A stretch of 32,820 nucleotides of DNA. It comes from Candidatus Saccharimonadota bacterium. GTDB lineage: Bacteria; Patescibacteriota; Saccharimonadia; Saccharimonadales; JAICHO01. The stretch is from NCBI GenBank assembly GCA_025924835.1, contig JAICHO010000008.1, forward strand, positions 1 through 32,820. Direction: 5' to 3'. The notes beneath the pieces are model-generated. The model had not been told where the DNA came from. It did not search any database and worked only from the letters and a program-made list of their open reading frames with translations. Below, in pieces: positions 1,663-7,411 of the stretch; position 1 is the first letter of the stretch, and every line of letters begins with the position of its first letter. The translations under genes and the position numbers were made by a program.

Positions 1663-3903
1663 ATGAAATTGATTAAGCTTATAAGTGTCTTCCTATTCCT
1701 ATTGTTACCACTACAAGTTATGGTTTTAGCCTATGCTGAAATGGCCTTATGCCAACTTTGTATATCCGAAGTTCAAACACAAGGCTTAGGTGGTGCCACC
1801 GAAGAGTATATTGTGCTTACTAACAGTACTGCTAATGACTATGACATGAGTGGGCACACAGTGCGTTATATAACAGCCGGTGGTACACCAAACACTAAAA
1901 CTATTACGTTAATGGGTACAATACCACCATATGCCAGCACGGCCTTTGTATCAGAAAGCCTCAAGACCGCAAATCCTAATTTAGGACAACTTCCGGCAGG
2001 TTTGGCTTTGGCTGATAGTGGCGGTAGTCTGCAGCTTCTTAAAAATGGCCAACCTATTGATCAAGTTGGTTGGGGAACGGCCTCTGCTTCATTCCGTGAA
2101 GGCACGGCCGCGCCGACGCACGAACGAGGTTGGTCGCTGGTTAGAAAACAAAATGTTGATGGAATTTTTCAAGATACCGGTGACAATAGCAATGATTTTG
2201 AGCCGGTTGCCCACGCCTGCGGGGGTGTTAGTCTGAATGAAATTCAACCACTGCTCATTGATCCCGACGGTCAGGATCTTACCCAGTCTGTGGAGCTACT
2301 TAAAACAAGCGAAGCTGCAGGCGAGCAAGATTGCCCCCTTGTCATTAATAATATTCCCGTGAAAATTGCCGCCGGCGATATAGGTTTTGACGCGGGTCTT
2401 GCGGTTATTGACACCGTTATTGACGACTCCAGCCTAGTTATTCCGCTGACGCTGCATAGTGATGCGACCAATAGCTTGCAGTTTATGCCCCGGAATGCGC
2501 TTGGCGGCGTTATACTCCCTGGTGCTGTATTTACCCAGCCAGTGCTTGTGAGTGGTCAAACATACGCTAAATTTTCCACTGGGTTTAAGGCTACCTACCA
2601 GCCTACGATCGGGTCGGCTAATCAACTTCGGACTACACCGCTGGTACTCGCAGATACAGCCTCAACAGAGGCTGCGGAGTGTAGCGAAGACATTGTTTTA
2701 AACGAACTACTGCCCAACCCCATAGGCGAAGATAGTAGTCAGGAATGGGTAGAATTTGCCAATATGACCGATCAGCCGGTACTGCTAACAGGCTGTGTAT
2801 TACAGATTGGTGGTAGCCAGTACATGCTCGGTCCGGATCAGTTCATTAACTCTAACCAGTTTCTGGTGCTGGGCAGTTTTAGTGATGGTGTTTCTGTGCG
2901 TACCCTGTCATTAAAAAATAGTGGCGTAAACACCGCGAGTTTGGGGCATGTAAATAACAACGGCAGTTTTGAACCGCTGCAGACTGTCCAATATTCAGAT
3001 GCTCCTGAGGGACAGGCCTGGGCGCGTTTTGAAGATGGTTGGCGCTGGATAGTGCCCACGCCCAGTGTTGAGAATACAGTAACAGCACAAAGTACAGATA
3101 CGGATTTGCCGCCCACGGAATTCCCGGCACCTGCAGCACCCGACGCGTCGCCGTCTGGCGACACTACAATCCCGGCGGTTGTAACCGACCCGGTAATTAG
3201 TATTACTGAGCTGTTACCGAACCCGGCAGCGCCCGGTACGGATGATGCCGATGAGTTTGTGGAGTTGTATAACTCCACTGATCAACCAATTAATCTAACG
3301 AACTATAAGCTGCAAAGCGGCAACAATTATACGTACAGTTACACCATAAACGCAATTACGCTTCTAGGGCATCAGTACACTACCTTTTATTCCCGCGATA
3401 GCGGGCTTGTACTGGCCAACAGTAGTGGACGTGTTAGTTTGTCCGATCCAGCGGGCAACGTCGTGGCAGAAACGGAACAGTACGACACGGCTGCAGAAGG
3501 ACAAGCGTGGGCGCTTATTTCGGGAGTATGGCAATGGACTGTTACGCCTACTCCTGGTGCCGAAAACATTGCCAGCATTCCCTTGCTGGCGGCCTCCACC
3601 AAGAGTAAAACGGCAAAGACCACCACTAAGGCTGCGGCTAAACCCAAAACGGCGACTACGGCTGCTACTAAGACCACCGCTGTTAAGTCAGTCAAAACTG
3701 CTGCGTCCGCTGACCGTCAGGTTTATGAAGATCCTGCCGCTACTCCTGCCGCTATTCATACCAGTATACTTGCTGCCATAGGTGTAGCCACGCTACTATA
3801 TGCAGGTTATGAGTACCGTTATGACGCAGTCAATACGATCCGCCGGTTCCGCCGATACCGAGAGCTTCGGCGAGCGGCTCGGCCGCAATCTTCAGGGCGG
3901 TGA
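1663..3903 (+). CDS. Secreted, membrane-anchored lamin-tail-domain protein
   Basis: A 746-aa protein with an N-terminal signal peptide (KLIKLISVFLFLLLPLQ...). It has three lamin-tail (LTD) Ig-like domains starting near residues 31, 343 and 510. The last two begin with the typical x-I-x-E-L-L-P-N-P motif followed by E-[WF]-V-E-[FL]-x-N. A Lys/Thr/Ala-rich low-complexity linker (about 647-685) and one hydrophobic segment (about 700-718) follow. The protein ends with an Arg-rich tail. The predicted topology is a surface protein held by a C-terminal anchor. There is no LPXTG-like motif, so the nearby sortase-like protein is not obviously its anchoring enzyme. The 3' end overlaps tsaE by 83 bases, so the anchor and tail are encoded in a region read in two frames. 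LTDs may bind protein, DNA or glycan; the ligand is unknown. Confidence 0.8.
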   Translation: MKLIKLISVFLFLLLPLQVMVLAYAEMALCQLCISEVQTQGLGGATEEYIVLTNSTANDYDMSGHTVRYITAGGTPNTKTITLMGTIPPYASTAFVSESLKTANPNLGQLPAGLALADSGGSLQLLKNGQPIDQVGWGTASASFREGTAAPTHERGWSLVRKQNVDGIFQDTGDNSNDFEPVAHACGGVSLNEIQPLLIDPDGQDLTQSVELLKTSEAAGEQDCPLVINNIPVKIAAGDIGFDAGLAVIDTVIDDSSLVIPLTLHSDATNSLQFMPRNALGGVILPGAVFTQPVLVSGQTYAKFSTGFKATYQPTIGSANQLRTTPLVLADTASTEAAECSEDIVLNELLPNPIGEDSSQEWVEFANMTDQPVLLTGCVLQIGGSQYMLGPDQFINSNQFLVLGSFSDGVSVRTLSLKNSGVNTASLGHVNNNGSFEPLQTVQYSDAPEGQAWARFEDGWRWIVPTPSVENTVTAQSTDTDLPPTEFPAPAAPDASPSGDTTIPAVVTDPVISITELLPNPAAPGTDDADEFVELYNSTDQPINLTNYKLQSGNNYTYSYTINAITLLGHQYTTFYSRDSGLVLANSSGRVSLSDPAGNVVAETEQYDTAAEGQAWALISGVWQWTVTPTPGAENIASIPLLAASTKSKTAKTTTKAAAKPKTATTAATKTTAVKSVKTAASADRQVYEDPAATPAAIHTSILAAIGVATLLYAGYEYRYDAVNTIRRFRRYRELRRAARPQSSGR

Positions 3904-4270
3904 AATCATTGAACTAGTGAGTGATTTGGGCGGCGGTAAAACCACTATGGCGCGCGGTATTGCCCGTGGCGCCGGCAGTAGTGACGTAGTCGCTAGCCCA
4001 ACTTTCACGCTAAGTAAGGTTTACACTACGCCCGCGTTCAGTATCTATCACTACGACTTTTATCGTCTGCAAGAGGCTGGGCTTATAGAGTATGAATTAA
4101 ACGATATCAGCGGTGACCCTAAAGCGGTGTTAGTTATTGAATGGGGGGAAGTGGTACAGCACGTATTGCCACTTAGGCGCCTGACTATCACTATTCGTAC
4201 GATGGCCGATGGTGTCCGCATGCTGGACTGTAGTTACCCAGAAGATCTGTCATACTTGTTAGCGTTATGA
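3821..4270 (+). CDS. tsaE: tRNA threonylcarbamoyladenosine biosynthesis ATPase TsaE
   Basis: TsaE is the ATPase that works with TsaB and TsaD to make t6A37 on ANN-decoding tRNAs in the cytosol. The Walker A loop is visible as SDLGGGKTT (the family norm is GDLGAGKTT). SPTFTLSKVY, HYDFYRL and VLVIEWGE follow, all in family order. ATG codons exist at 3800, 3809 and 3821. The last gives an N-terminus of normal length (about 149 aa) before the TESFGERLG helix, so I prefer it. None has a clear ribosome-binding site. The gene overlaps the 3' end of the lamin-tail gene by 83 nt and overlaps tsaB by four bases (ATGA), so all three are probably co-transcribed. Confidence 0.9.
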   Translation: MTQSIRSAGSADTESFGERLGRNLQGGEIIELVSDLGGGKTTMARGIARGAGSSDVVASPTFTLSKVYTTPAFSIYHYDFYRLQEAGLIEYELNDISGDPKAVLVIEWGEVVQHVLPLRRLTITIRTMADGVRMLDCSYPEDLSYLLAL

Positions 4271-4665
4271 TTATTCTGACTATCCGTACCGATCAACCAA
4301 ATGCTGAATTGGGCCTATATAATAACGATGCAAAGCTGATTGACGTTGAGTGGACGGCCCATAGGCAACTGGCAGAAACTCTGCATCAGCAGATAACCCA
4401 TCTCTTATCTCGTGAAGATATGAGAGTTCAAGACATTGAGGGCATTATTGTTTTTGCCGGTCCGGGATCCTTTACTGGCTTGAGGATAGGCATTAGCGTA
4501 GCCAACGCGCTTGCCTATGCCCTGAATGTTCCCATAGCATGTGGAATGGGTAAGGATTGGGTAAAAGAGGCACGAGACCAATTAAACCAGCCGAATCGTC
4601 CGGATAGCAAGTATGTAATCCCGGTTTATGGAGCTCCAGTTCATCTGACCCTGCCGCGCAAGTAA
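4267..4665 (+). CDS. tsaB: Short TsaB-like protein (t6A biosynthesis)
   Basis: A 132-aa protein matching the N-terminal lobe of TsaB, the scaffold partner of TsaD and TsaE. The hallmark GPGSFTGLRIGISVANALAYALNVP stretch is in two pieces: the GPGSFTGLRIG turn (about residues 63-73) and the following helix. Normal TsaB is around 210-230 aa, so the C-terminal lobe is missing. The reading frame closes with a clean TAA and no sign of a frameshifted continuation, so this looks like a natural short form. The ATGA overlap with tsaE supports functional coupling. The tail after residue 95 is not recognisable. Confidence 0.85.
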   Translation: MIILTIRTDQPNAELGLYNNDAKLIDVEWTAHRQLAETLHQQITHLLSREDMRVQDIEGIIVFAGPGSFTGLRIGISVANALAYALNVPIACGMGKDWVKEARDQLNQPNRPDSKYVIPVYGAPVHLTLPRK

Positions 4666-4693
4666 TCAATACAACATTCAAAGCATAAAGAGC

Positions 4694-4727
4694 TTGACAA
4701 ATTAACGGATAACGTTACAGTTAATTT
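4694..4727 (+). promoter_or_regulatory. Promoter and inverted-repeat operator candidate before the sortase-like gene
   Basis: A consensus TTGACA lies at 4694-4699. A weak -10 (TACAGT, 4716-4721) follows after 16 nt. The region contains an inverted repeat AAATTAAC (4699-4706) / GTTAATTT (4720-4727) with a 13-nt spacer. Its arms touch the -35 and the -10, the layout of a repressor operator. Transcription would start around 4728, leaving a leader of about 50 nt. Confidence 0.4.
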
Positions 4728-4780
4728 TGTAGTATTTTTTAAACCAAAAATAGGAAAAGAGAACGAATAGGCCAACAAAA

Positions 4781-5713
4781 ATGGACGAACGGCCAAAACT
4801 GGGCTTAGAGAATCCGACGCACCGTGCACGATTGCGAGGCAGGGGGCTTACTAATACGCATACCTTATCATCGCCCCATCATGCACAGAACCTCATTAGC
4901 GATGTGCGTATTCATTCCCGGTCCATTAACAAGCATGCGTCAGATATTAAAGCTGTAGCTCAACCGGTTACTTCGCGTCACTTACCAAAACAGGCAAAGT
5001 CACGTGTCTTGAAACGACAAGTGACTCGGCCTATATACGCACCCTACCCTAAACACCGCCGTCCCGTACGTGCCATTGTTTGGGCTGTTGTGGTGATCTT
5101 GTTAGCCGCCGGGGGAACCATAACGGTGTTCACCGTTATGCGTAGGGGTAGTGAGGCAAAAGCACAAGCTAAACAGCTGTCTTCACAAATAATTACGGAT
5201 GCCACCAGCCAAGTGCCTATCTCTGAAGCTGAACCCCCAAAAGACATCACGACTTACCAAGTTGCGGCTGATTTGCCGCGATTTTTGTCAATTGAAAAAA
5301 TAGATGTACATGCCCGGATCCGTCAAGTAAGCGAAGAATCTAAAAACGTACCGACGGCTCCGGCGAGCATATTTGACGTTGGTTGGTACAATGGCAGTCC
5401 AAAACCAGGTGAACCTGGAACCATTGTGTTGGACGGACACGTCTCCGGCCCAACCAAGCGGGGCGTATTCTATAATATTGGGAATATGCAGATTGGCGAT
5501 AAGATTACTCTGGAACGCGGAGACGGTAAAGTTTTTAGCTACACGGTTTCGGGTAAGGAACTGTATGACAATGGACAGGTTGACACGGATAAATTAGTCA
5601 AAAGTTCAGTGCCGGGCAAACCTGGCTTGAATCTTATCACATCCTCGGGGCGATTCAATGTCCGCGACAATCAGTTTGAGCAGCGTATGGTAATATTTGC
5701 CGTCCAAGATTAG
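4781..5713 (+). CDS. Class E/F sortase-fold protein with Ser in place of the catalytic Cys
   Basis: A 310-aa protein with a long basic N-terminal cytoplasmic region (about 95 residues), one membrane segment (about 98-120), a spacer and a C-terminal sortase domain (about 165-308). The catalytic His is present in L-D-G-H-V (His220) and the Arg in QRMVIFA (Arg302). Where sortases have T-L-x-T-C, this protein reads N-L-I-T-S: codon 288 is TCC (5642-5644), Ser instead of Cys. By family knowledge that should abolish or strongly reduce transpeptidation. It may be a binding or structural paralogue, or use an unusual Ser nucleophile. It is a single gene, with no LPXTG substrate seen nearby. Confidence 0.75.
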   Translation: MDERPKLGLENPTHRARLRGRGLTNTHTLSSPHHAQNLISDVRIHSRSINKHASDIKAVAQPVTSRHLPKQAKSRVLKRQVTRPIYAPYPKHRRPVRAIVWAVVVILLAAGGTITVFTVMRRGSEAKAQAKQLSSQIITDATSQVPISEAEPPKDITTYQVAADLPRFLSIEKIDVHARIRQVSEESKNVPTAPASIFDVGWYNGSPKPGEPGTIVLDGHVSGPTKRGVFYNIGNMQIGDKITLERGDGKVFSYTVSGKELYDNGQVDTDKLVKSSVPGKPGLNLITSSGRFNVRDNQFEQRMVIFAVQD

Positions 5714-5896
5714 CATATTGTCAGCCTGAGCCGGGAAGCGTATAGTTTTGCGTAGGATTACCGCCATTTTGGGAGCAAATCCGCCCTTAACGTTAAATTT
5801 TAATACTGTTTCGTTTTCAGATTACACGCAAATTCGGCTAATGAAGTGATAGTGATGCCAGGCTGCGGGTGATTTGCAGCATAGGAAGGAATAGAT

Positions 5897-7411
5897 ATGG
5901 GTCCACTTACTATTGTGCTGGCGCTTGCTGGCATTGGTGTTGGCTTTGGTGCTAACACCGTTATATCAAAAAAGAAATTGGGCAGTGCAGAGGAACAAGC
6001 CCAAAAAGACTTGGCCAAAGCCAAAAAAGAAGCTAATAAACTGATTGAAGAAGCGCGCGAAGAAGCGTTACGTGCCGCCGAAGAATCTAAAAAAGAGGAT
6101 CAGCAGCGACGCAAGGAAATTAAAGACATCGAACAACGTCTTTTGACGCGTGAGGAAGCTTTGGACAGAAAACTGGATGATCTGGACAAACGCAGCGAGA
6201 ATCTGCGTAAAGGTGAGGATGAGGTAGAAGCGCTCAAGAATGAAATCCGTGACATCCGCAGCCGGCAGCAAGAAAAGCTGGAAAAAATAGCCAAGCTTAG
6301 TAAAACTGATGCCGCCGATAAATTAATGCAAATGACCGAGCGTGATATTCGCAATGATCTGTTGGGCCTCGTATCCAAGCTGCAAAATGAAGCCAAAGAC
6401 CTAGCAGAGGAAAAAGCCGGGGCGATTATTGTCGGGGCGATGGAACGTATGGCCAGCGAGGTCACGGCAGAACGCACGGTAACTGCCGTCAAGCTAGAAG
6501 ACGAAGAAATGAAAGGCCGTATTATAGGCAAAGAAGGCCGTAATATTCAAGCCCTGCAACGAGCTACCGGTGTTGATATTATGGTTGACGATACGCCAGG
6601 TTACGTCGTCCTTAGCAGTTTTGACCCGATTCGTCGTGAAGTTGCACGCCAAGCGTTGGAACTATTGCTCAAGGATGGACGTGTTCATCCCGGACGCATT
6701 GAAGAAGTGGTAGAAAAGGCACAAAAAAATGTCCAAAAAGAGGTAATGCGCGCCGGCGAAGATGCGGCGCGTGAAGTTGGCATAATCGGTATACCGCGTG
6801 AAGTTCTGGAACTACTCGGCGAGCTGAAGTTTAGGACCAGTTATGGGCAAAATGTCCTGAAACACAGTACGGAAATGGCTCATATTGCCGGGATTATTGC
6901 CGAAGAAGTTGGAGCCAATGTCAAAATTGCCAAGTACGCTGCACTAGTCCACGATCTGGGCAAAGCCCTAACACATAAAATGGAGGGCAAGCATCACCAC
7001 ATAAGTGGCGAAATGCTGCGTAAATACGGTGCTCCTGAAGAAGTAGCAGTAGCAGCCGAGCAGCATCATGACGACGTAGAAGCTACCACTACCGAAGCTC
7101 TCATAGTGCGCGTGGTGGATGCTATCAGCGCCTCCCGTCCCGGTGCCCGCAATATCAGCGCCGAAAACTTCGCTGAGCGTATGAAAGATCTGGAAAACGT
7201 AGCCAACGGCTTTGAAGGCATAGAGAAATCCTATGCCATTAGTGCTGGCCGCGAAGTGCGGGTATTTGTGCGCCCCGGCCAAATTGATGATCTAAGTGCC
7301 ATCAAACTTGCCCGTGATATCGCCAACAAAATAGAGAGTACCATGCAATATCCCGGTACCATAAAGGTAAATGTCATCCGCGAAACCCGCGCCATAGAAT
7401 TTGCCAAATAG
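5897..7411 (+). CDS. rny: Ribonuclease Y
   Basis: RNase Y is a membrane-tethered endoribonuclease that starts mRNA decay. All family parts are present over 504 aa. An N-terminal membrane helix (about 3-20) is followed by a long Lys/Glu-rich coiled coil (about 28-185). A KH domain contains GRIIGKEGRNI (about 200-265). An HD domain has the catalytic His-Asp in V-H-D-L-G-K (His352, Asp353), plus LKHSTEMA and EQHHDD. A strong Shine-Dalgarno AGGAAGGA (5883-5890) sits six bases before the ATG, unlike the many leaderless starts in this window. It stands alone, with a 183-bp region upstream in which I find no convincing promoter. Confidence 0.96.
   Translation: MGPLTIVLALAGIGVGFGANTVISKKKLGSAEEQAQKDLAKAKKEANKLIEEAREEALRAAEESKKEDQQRRKEIKDIEQRLLTREEALDRKLDDLDKRSENLRKGEDEVEALKNEIRDIRSRQQEKLEKIAKLSKTDAADKLMQMTERDIRNDLLGLVSKLQNEAKDLAEEKAGAIIVGAMERMASEVTAERTVTAVKLEDEEMKGRIIGKEGRNIQALQRATGVDIMVDDTPGYVVLSSFDPIRREVARQALELLLKDGRVHPGRIEEVVEKAQKNVQKEVMRAGEDAAREVGIIGIPREVLELLGELKFRTSYGQNVLKHSTEMAHIAGIIAEEVGANVKIAKYAALVHDLGKALTHKMEGKHHHISGEMLRKYGAPEEVAVAAEQHHDDVEATTTEALIVRVVDAISASRPGARNISAENFAERMKDLENVANGFEGIEKSYAISAGREVRVFVRPGQIDDLSAIKLARDIANKIESTMQYPGTIKVNVIRETRAIEFAK

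Follow-up and report, generated by a model that had tools for sequence, protein, structure and literature searches.

Background

Sortases are enzymes that anchor surface proteins, and they are usually treated as all-or-nothing enzymes. With class F sortases (NF033748; PF04203) the protein described here shares the predicted eight-stranded fold, a single N-terminal membrane helix and the catalytic His and Arg. It was found in a 32,820-nt stretch of DNA from a Candidatus Saccharimonadota bacterium (the window, i.e. the whole stretch that was analysed). Unlike class F sortases, the window protein scores below the curated value of the class F model, its catalytic Cys is replaced, and it has neither a substrate gene at its locus nor a match to the dedicated substrate profile anywhere in its genome. 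Intact orthologues lying in the same position, between tsaB and rny (e.g. in genomes G260, G140 and G082), have the same membrane topology as the window protein, but differ in keeping the Cys and in being mostly preceded by a substrate gene of the PDTG type.

Degenerate enzymes of surface-protein processing have been described in other bacteria. SipA of Streptococcus pyogenes is reported to be a signal-peptidase-like protein without the catalytic Ser/Lys and to be essential for pilus assembly (PMC4049620). It resembles the window protein in having the fold of a surface protein-processing enzyme minus the catalytic residues, and is an example of a protein of this kind being essential, but it belongs to another fold and family and is kept beside pilin genes, whereas the window protein is without its substrate. 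The second sortase of Clostridium difficile 630, also a sortase gene unable to act, breaks off at a stop codon ahead of the Cys, and the other four lineages lack it (PMC4155245). It is an ordinary pseudogene, whereas the frame in the window is open and the pattern is recurrent. A sortase family has been reported from over half of the CPR genomes (PMC6744442), and no comment on missing nucleophiles in CPR sortases was found in the accessible portion of that paper. Among the open-licence literature, as far as its accessible text goes, no paper was found on pseudosortases; nor did the papers listed on inactive or degenerate sortases, or on sortases of Saccharibacteria/Patescibacteria, deal with such a loss.

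A sortase fold without the nucleophile

As shown in Table 1, the window ORF lies between tsaB and rny. Its product matched PF04203 (Pfam Sortase) over residues 169–308 (9.5e-18; 64.6 bits, the cut-off being 26.6), and the class F model NF033748 was the best of six NCBIfam sortase models listed (2.7e-28), although its score of 98.5 bits was below the curated 166, so that the class F cut-off was not reached. A basic cytosolic N-terminus of ~98 residues is followed by a single membrane helix and then by the sortase domain. An AlphaFold2 model of residues 94–310 had a mean pLDDT of 90.4 and superposed on solved sortases with Z 13.8–15.9 among the 50 matches listed, which include SrtC1 (3re9; Z 15.9, rmsd 2.1 over 127 residues) and SrtE (9j0t; Z 15.2). 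By a profile score over the cut-off and a predicted beta-barrel, the protein belongs to the sortase fold family.

Table 1. Positions of the features of the tsaB–rny locus in the window.
Feature	Position	Strand	Evidence or remark
tsaB, upstream boundary of the conserved locus	4267..4665	+	TIGR03725 1.7e-22; synteny
tsaB–sortase gap	4666..4780	+	Holds a PDTG-type substrate gene in most intact loci; just promoter and leader in the window
Sigma-70-like promoter (TTGACA, 16 nt, TACAGT), directly after tsaB	4694..4721	+	10/12 matches
Putative pseudosortase gene	4781..5713	+	310 aa; class-F-like sortase fold without Cys
Cytosolic motif SRVLKR, residues 74–79	5000..5017	+	Recurs as S-x-V-[LI]-x-R
Single transmembrane helix, ~residues 99–117	5075..5131	+	Hydropathy; helix 2–41 in the fragment model starting at residue 94
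Sortase domain, residues 169–308	5285..5704	+	PF04203; AlphaFold2 model of 94–310
Codon of His220, catalytic His, kept	5438..5440	+	Alignments
Codon of Ser288 (TCC), at the catalytic Cys position	5642..5644	+	Sequence read; alignments
Codon of Arg302, catalytic Arg, kept	5684..5686	+	Alignments
rny, downstream boundary of the conserved locus, which we take to be the gene of RNase Y	5897..7411	+	Synteny

Residues 287–289 read T-S-S, and the TLxTC motif of sortases reads LIT-Ser288-SG. The nucleophile Cys of an active sortase is thus absent, and His and Arg are present. A first-pass annotation made from the sequence alone had reported this Ser, the retained His220 and Arg302 and a sortase fold lacking the catalytic Cys without decay of the frame; reading of the sequence, the Pfam match, the predicted fold and the open frame (4781–5713) bore out all of these, and frame decay was ruled out. 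As modelled, the protein resembles a pseudoenzyme in being an intact protein with the fold of an enzyme minus a catalytic residue. A nearby alternative Cys could not serve as nucleophile, as none of the 310 residues is a cysteine. Of the 14 Cys-less sortases found upstream of rny (see below), 13 likewise had no displaced cysteine within their C-terminal 175 aa; in the remaining one, G066, a Cys precedes the nucleophile position by six residues, but the His is replaced by Gln and the nucleophile position itself is Val.

The same annotation had advised looking for a second, intact sortase and for LPXTG-like substrates, and both were found: two further sortases of the window genome have the Cys, and two LPNTG tail-anchored proteins are encoded (30 of 39 PDTG/PNTG pattern hits were read; a control pattern gave 35 hits), while the PDTG-type profile described below gave no match. 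These LPNTG proteins are presumably served by the other sortases, though their presence is a point against the explanation preferred below. Since two Cys-containing sortases and two LPNTG proteins are present, sortase chemistry as such is probably not gone from the cell. At least two PF04203 matches were detected in each of 34 genomes checked (34/34).

The locus between tsaB and rny

The conserved gene order was recX – LTD protein – tsaE – tsaB – [substrate] – sortase – rny – ymdB. Loci were surveyed both from sortase matches and from rny, which was matched in 111 of 118 genomes, and 60 rny-defined regions were taken. A script classified 47 of them; among the other 13 there was one sortase (G066, Cys-less, no substrate) and in 12 none. 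In 42 classified loci tsaB and rny had no sortase between them.

The TsaB of the window has 132 aa and covers residues 1–97 of the 212-position TsaB model. Because tsaB open frames in related loci span 130–217 aa and are mostly shorter than 160, such a length appears to be usual in the order. The 746-aa LTD protein encoded at 1663–3903 carries lamin-tail domains and ends in a helix followed by a basic tail. In many related loci the gene before tsaE encodes a relative with a comparable YEYR tail. The LTD protein was considered as a sortase substrate and rejected, for it has no PxTG motif and occurs also in sortase-free loci.

Loss of the cysteine in related genomes

In an order-level sample of 102 sortase ORFs (including one fragment and one gene piece counted twice), the aligned nucleophile column was Cys in 89 and not in 13, so that absence of the Cys is more than chance. 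The Cys-less sortases clustered at one site, between tsaB and rny. Upstream of rny, 43 sortases were found in 41 loci, 29 with and 14 without the Cys. The fourteen Cys-less sortases span eleven families and still have a membrane anchor, and their open frames measure 284–408 aa from stop to stop. At the Cys position they have S, E, T, R, L, I, F (three) or V (four), or the motif is deleted (G038); His is missing in 10 and Arg in 2.

It had been proposed from the retained residues that the window protein might use a Ser-based chemistry. In such a scheme Ser288 would act with His220 and Arg302 as the nucleophile of a transpeptidase or hydrolase. His220 and Arg302 are indeed kept and the fold is predicted to be intact, but Ser occurs at this position in the window protein alone among the 14, and a search of the window genome for the dedicated substrate family was negative. 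Because the Cys position takes eight residue types plus a deletion, a serine nucleophile is unlikely; with the residue unconserved, we rejected this chemistry and regard it as hardly credible. The other suggestion made from the same residues, selection for binding, fits the Arg better (kept in 12/14) than the His (kept in 4/14).

Several further loci were observed. In G013 (L062, 767–2673) an intact and a Cys-less sortase lie in tandem before rny, the triad of the latter being Tyr, Phe and Arg. The sortase before rny in G310 (L127, 3081–3845) retains the Cys and the Arg, with Ala replacing the His, and its genome has no substrate-profile match; with the Cys kept and the His lost, it represents another path to the same end state. 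Two Cys-less sortases lie away from rny (L123 of G096 with Phe and L133 of G361 with Asn), with no PxTG-type substrate within 3.5 kb.

No other genome of the window's family (f1) was present among the 60 and 118 nearest relatives, and family-level searches (families of 11, 6 and 6 genomes) yielded no genome beyond those sampled. In a class-wide search two genomes of other orders, G396 and G413, were examined, and both had the Cys. A sortase match was found in at least 219 genomes; since those examined are just a part, mostly best matches, more Cys-less copies may exist. Of 80 loci from named relatives 77 had the Cys, the three others being contigs of G003, G006 and G041; these loci overlap with the sampled genomes and so are no independent evidence.

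Absence of the substrate gene

The gene preceding intact sortases usually encodes a protein of ~380–610 aa ending in a sorting signal, mostly [A/T/Q/S/V]P[D/N]TG, then a membrane helix and a basic tail. Among 32 complete tsaB–rny intervals with a sortase (nine loci at contig ends were excluded), this substrate gene was present in 15/20 with the Cys and 0/12 without it (Fisher 2.9e-5, kinship ignored). The five Cys-containing intervals lacking it were those of G009, G052, G168, G058 and G079; in G079 a substrate gene lies just upstream, past a second sortase and tsaB. For 84 sortases at any site in loci L055–L134, a PxTG/PxSG tail protein was encoded within 3.5 kb of 41/72 with the Cys vs 1/12 without it, the sole Cys-less case being the G013 tandem.

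A sorting-signal profile (alignment A1) was searched genome-wide in 45 genomes. Matches at 1.3e-7 or better were obtained in 25 of 26 genomes with a Cys-containing sortase (G013, with its intact sortase and its Cys-less copy by rny, being counted here), one of these (G009) being a stub; 17 of the 26 had been picked because a substrate gene lay in or beside the locus. The nine others gave seven strong matches, the G009 stub without the motif, and none in G310. A long substrate candidate was located elsewhere in the genome in G052, G168, G058 and G017 (motif read in three), and in G083, G175 and G069, where the locus is cut by the contig end, a substrate C-terminus stands at the contig start right before the sortase. 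The 13 Cys-less genomes, the window genome included, gave no substrate-profile match below 0.008. In G003 the profile picked out, at 0.0085, a protein of another type (LPNTG) encoded beside another sortase which has the Cys, and the scores in G006 and G038 were 0.165 and 0.64. Where the locus had no sortase (six genomes), the best match was 0.009.

These data bear on the possibility of a sequencing or assembly error, by which TGC in a normal sortase would have been read as TCC. The window genome is a draft of 51 contigs with 5% missing, the ORF was seen in single copy, and its Ser codon is one base from a Cys codon. But the substrate gene is absent too, as in 12/12 Cys-less intervals vs 5/20 with the Cys, and there is no substrate match genome-wide. 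Because relatives show the same kind of loss and the substrate gene is missing, a base error is unlikely, and we give it a very small chance. Orthologues with the Cys had been named beforehand as a sign of such an error; they do exist (29/43), yet do not point to one, as the loss recurs alongside substrate absence.

In the tsaB–sortase gap of G009 (L056) there is a 71-aa stub with a signal peptide and a membrane anchor but no PDTG, and the sortase has the Cys. The stub seems to be a shrunken substrate whose sortase still has its nucleophile. This suggests that G009 is an intermediate in a course by which the substrate is lost before the Cys. Within one genus, G082 has the Cys and two substrate genes and G038 has neither (fork support 100/98). 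In three loci of genus g24 (L071, L093 and L105) the gap contains, by eye, a ribosome-binding site and an ATG that opens a very short frame; this may be the start codon left over from a lost substrate gene.

A promoter-like box in front of the sortase

Around positions 4694–4721, 4 promoter-like sites were counted vs 2.2 expected. Within the 170 nt that follow tsaB, TTGACA accompanied by a -10-like box was present in 8/11 Cys-less loci, in 12/20 loci with the Cys, i.e. intact orthologues sharing this feature with the window, and in 1/42 sortase-free loci (Fisher for 8/11 vs 1/42, 1.6e-6). With the looser TTGACN the counts were 8/11, 14/20 and 9/42, respectively. Three of the 11 Cys-less loci had no TTGACA box, which counts against the explanation preferred below. 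The string TGTAGTA, common to the window and the G009 stub locus, occurred in four Cys-less, three Cys-containing and no sortase-free loci.

We read the box, from its sequence and placement, as a putative former promoter of the substrate operon which would now stand before the pseudosortase. Because the promoter-like box of the operon is usually kept, a deletion in place, behind the promoter, is the probable fate of the substrate gene.

Recurrence, rates and the cytosolic tail

On a 54-row rny tree the Cys-less label changed 10 times, at least 5 of the changes being forced by supported branches, and 6 times with Cys-containing and Cys-less rows alone. A sortase-domain tree gave 8 changes (2 forced) and a 31-row rny tree 4 (1 forced). 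Four loci with short rny pieces were excluded from the 31-row tree, and the rny of three was added for the 54-row tree; G013, G066 and G310 were in neither rny tree, and L061, L079, L082 and L166 were outside the 31-row tree, their substrate states being unused in the 54-row analysis. A single Cys-less clade was rejected; the trees disagree on the number of losses. Repeated loss of the Cys is likely, the number of losses varying by tree. All four supported independent pairs on the 54-row tree linked Cys loss with substrate absence (4/4; p 0.125, four pairs being unable to reach 0.05).

The ratio of terminal branches, sortase over rny, had a median of 5.0 in Cys-less rows (11) and of 3.1 in rows with the Cys (26; p 0.0055), G038 being excluded because its motif is deleted. 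The three g24 sortases all have Val at the nucleophile position; in the closest pair, over the last 170 residues, 0.185 of nonsynonymous vs 0.80 of synonymous sites differed, the synonymous sites being saturated. These comparisons point to relaxed but, where testable, purifying selection on the Cys-less sortases, the window's own family being one genome.

S-x-V-[LI]-x-R lies 25–43 aa before the membrane helix in 12/29 sortases with the Cys, a further trait that the window protein has in common with intact orthologues, and in 7/14 without it (upstream of rny). It was expected in 0.8% of shuffled N-termini, the motif having been chosen after viewing the alignment. Its absence from the other 7/14 Cys-less proteins counts against the preferred explanation.

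The faster evolution of Cys-less domains (5.0 vs 3.1) would also be expected of a relic in slow decay, in which the substrate is gone, the sortase is idle and the frame is merely not yet lost. Loss of His in 10/14 and deletion of the motif in G038 agree with such a relic, as do the 42 related loci with tsaB and rny but no sortase, by which the gene is dispensable. Yet fourteen Cys-less copies from eleven families have long open frames, the g24 trio shares one residue at the nucleophile position with pN far below pS, the promoter-like box is kept and the tail motif is kept in half of the copies. We consider slow decay rather unlikely, though a rival to be taken seriously.

The leader of rny

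A pattern, [AG]AAGTGA[ATC]AG[CT]GA, was observed upstream of rny in 67/83 rny loci (e.g. L140, L180 and L115). In the window the rny leader (5806–5896) is predicted to form a hairpin with an 18-nt apical loop, UAAUGAAGUGAUAGUGAU. The loop is nearly constant across the order, and the adjoining stem changes in compensating fashion. In a 34-row alignment 16 columns were invariant; the loop accounts for 14 of these, partly owing to the choice of rows. All four leaders folded singly (4/4) gave the hairpin with its 18-nt loop; one of the four clearly beat its shuffles (z -2.7), and the window leader had z -0.6. The stem by the loop had a mean of 4.3 pairs vs 2.4 with shuffled partners (highest of 300 shuffles, 2.9). 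RNAalifold returned no pairs on the unanchored leader alignment, and an Rfam scan of window positions 4600–6000 gave one unrelated match (E 0.58), far below the gathering score. The leader is a candidate cis-regulatory RNA of RNase Y, as judged from sequence.

Discussion

At the window locus the catalytic Cys and the substrate gene are absent, the promoter-like box, open frame, predicted fold and membrane anchor are kept, and the pattern repeats in relatives. The explanation that we prefer, with a probability of about 0.6, is that the gene encodes a pseudosortase left behind by the loss of its substrate and retained for a non-enzymatic role at the membrane.

The ancestor would have been a dedicated, membrane-anchored, class-F-like sortase, forming with its substrate a two-gene unit between tsaB and rny. 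In the window lineage, and apparently several times elsewhere, the substrate gene would have been lost and the promoter kept. With no client to anchor, the nucleophile would no longer be selected and could drift to Ser, Val, Phe, Glu, Thr, Arg, Leu or Ile or be deleted, mostly together with the His. We infer that loss of the substrate preceded that of the Cys, and that the protein continues to be produced and retained for its non-enzymatic role. In that role the sortase groove might hold a peptide or a partner (Arg is kept in 12/14); alternatively, the protein may act through its cytosolic tail, S-x-V-L-x-R being kept in 7/14 of the Cys-less proteins. A broader proposal, that dedicated sortases were repeatedly converted after substrate deletion into non-enzymatic binding or scaffold proteins of the membrane, many acting via the S-x-V-L-x-R tail and expressed from an inherited promoter beside RNase Y, is offered tentatively, and we think it possible rather than probable.

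One locus thus occurs in three states: sortase-free, with a substrate and an intact sortase, and with a sortase body lacking substrate or nucleophile. With an intermediate and apparently several transitions at the same place, the fate of an enzyme after the loss of its client becomes testable by comparison. The locus is also a warning that, in a group of small-genome bacteria, annotation of sortases overcounts the active enzymes. It provides a candidate for a non-enzymatic use of the sortase fold and, if the preferred explanation is true, these proteins would be the first conserved, recurrent group of pseudosortases.
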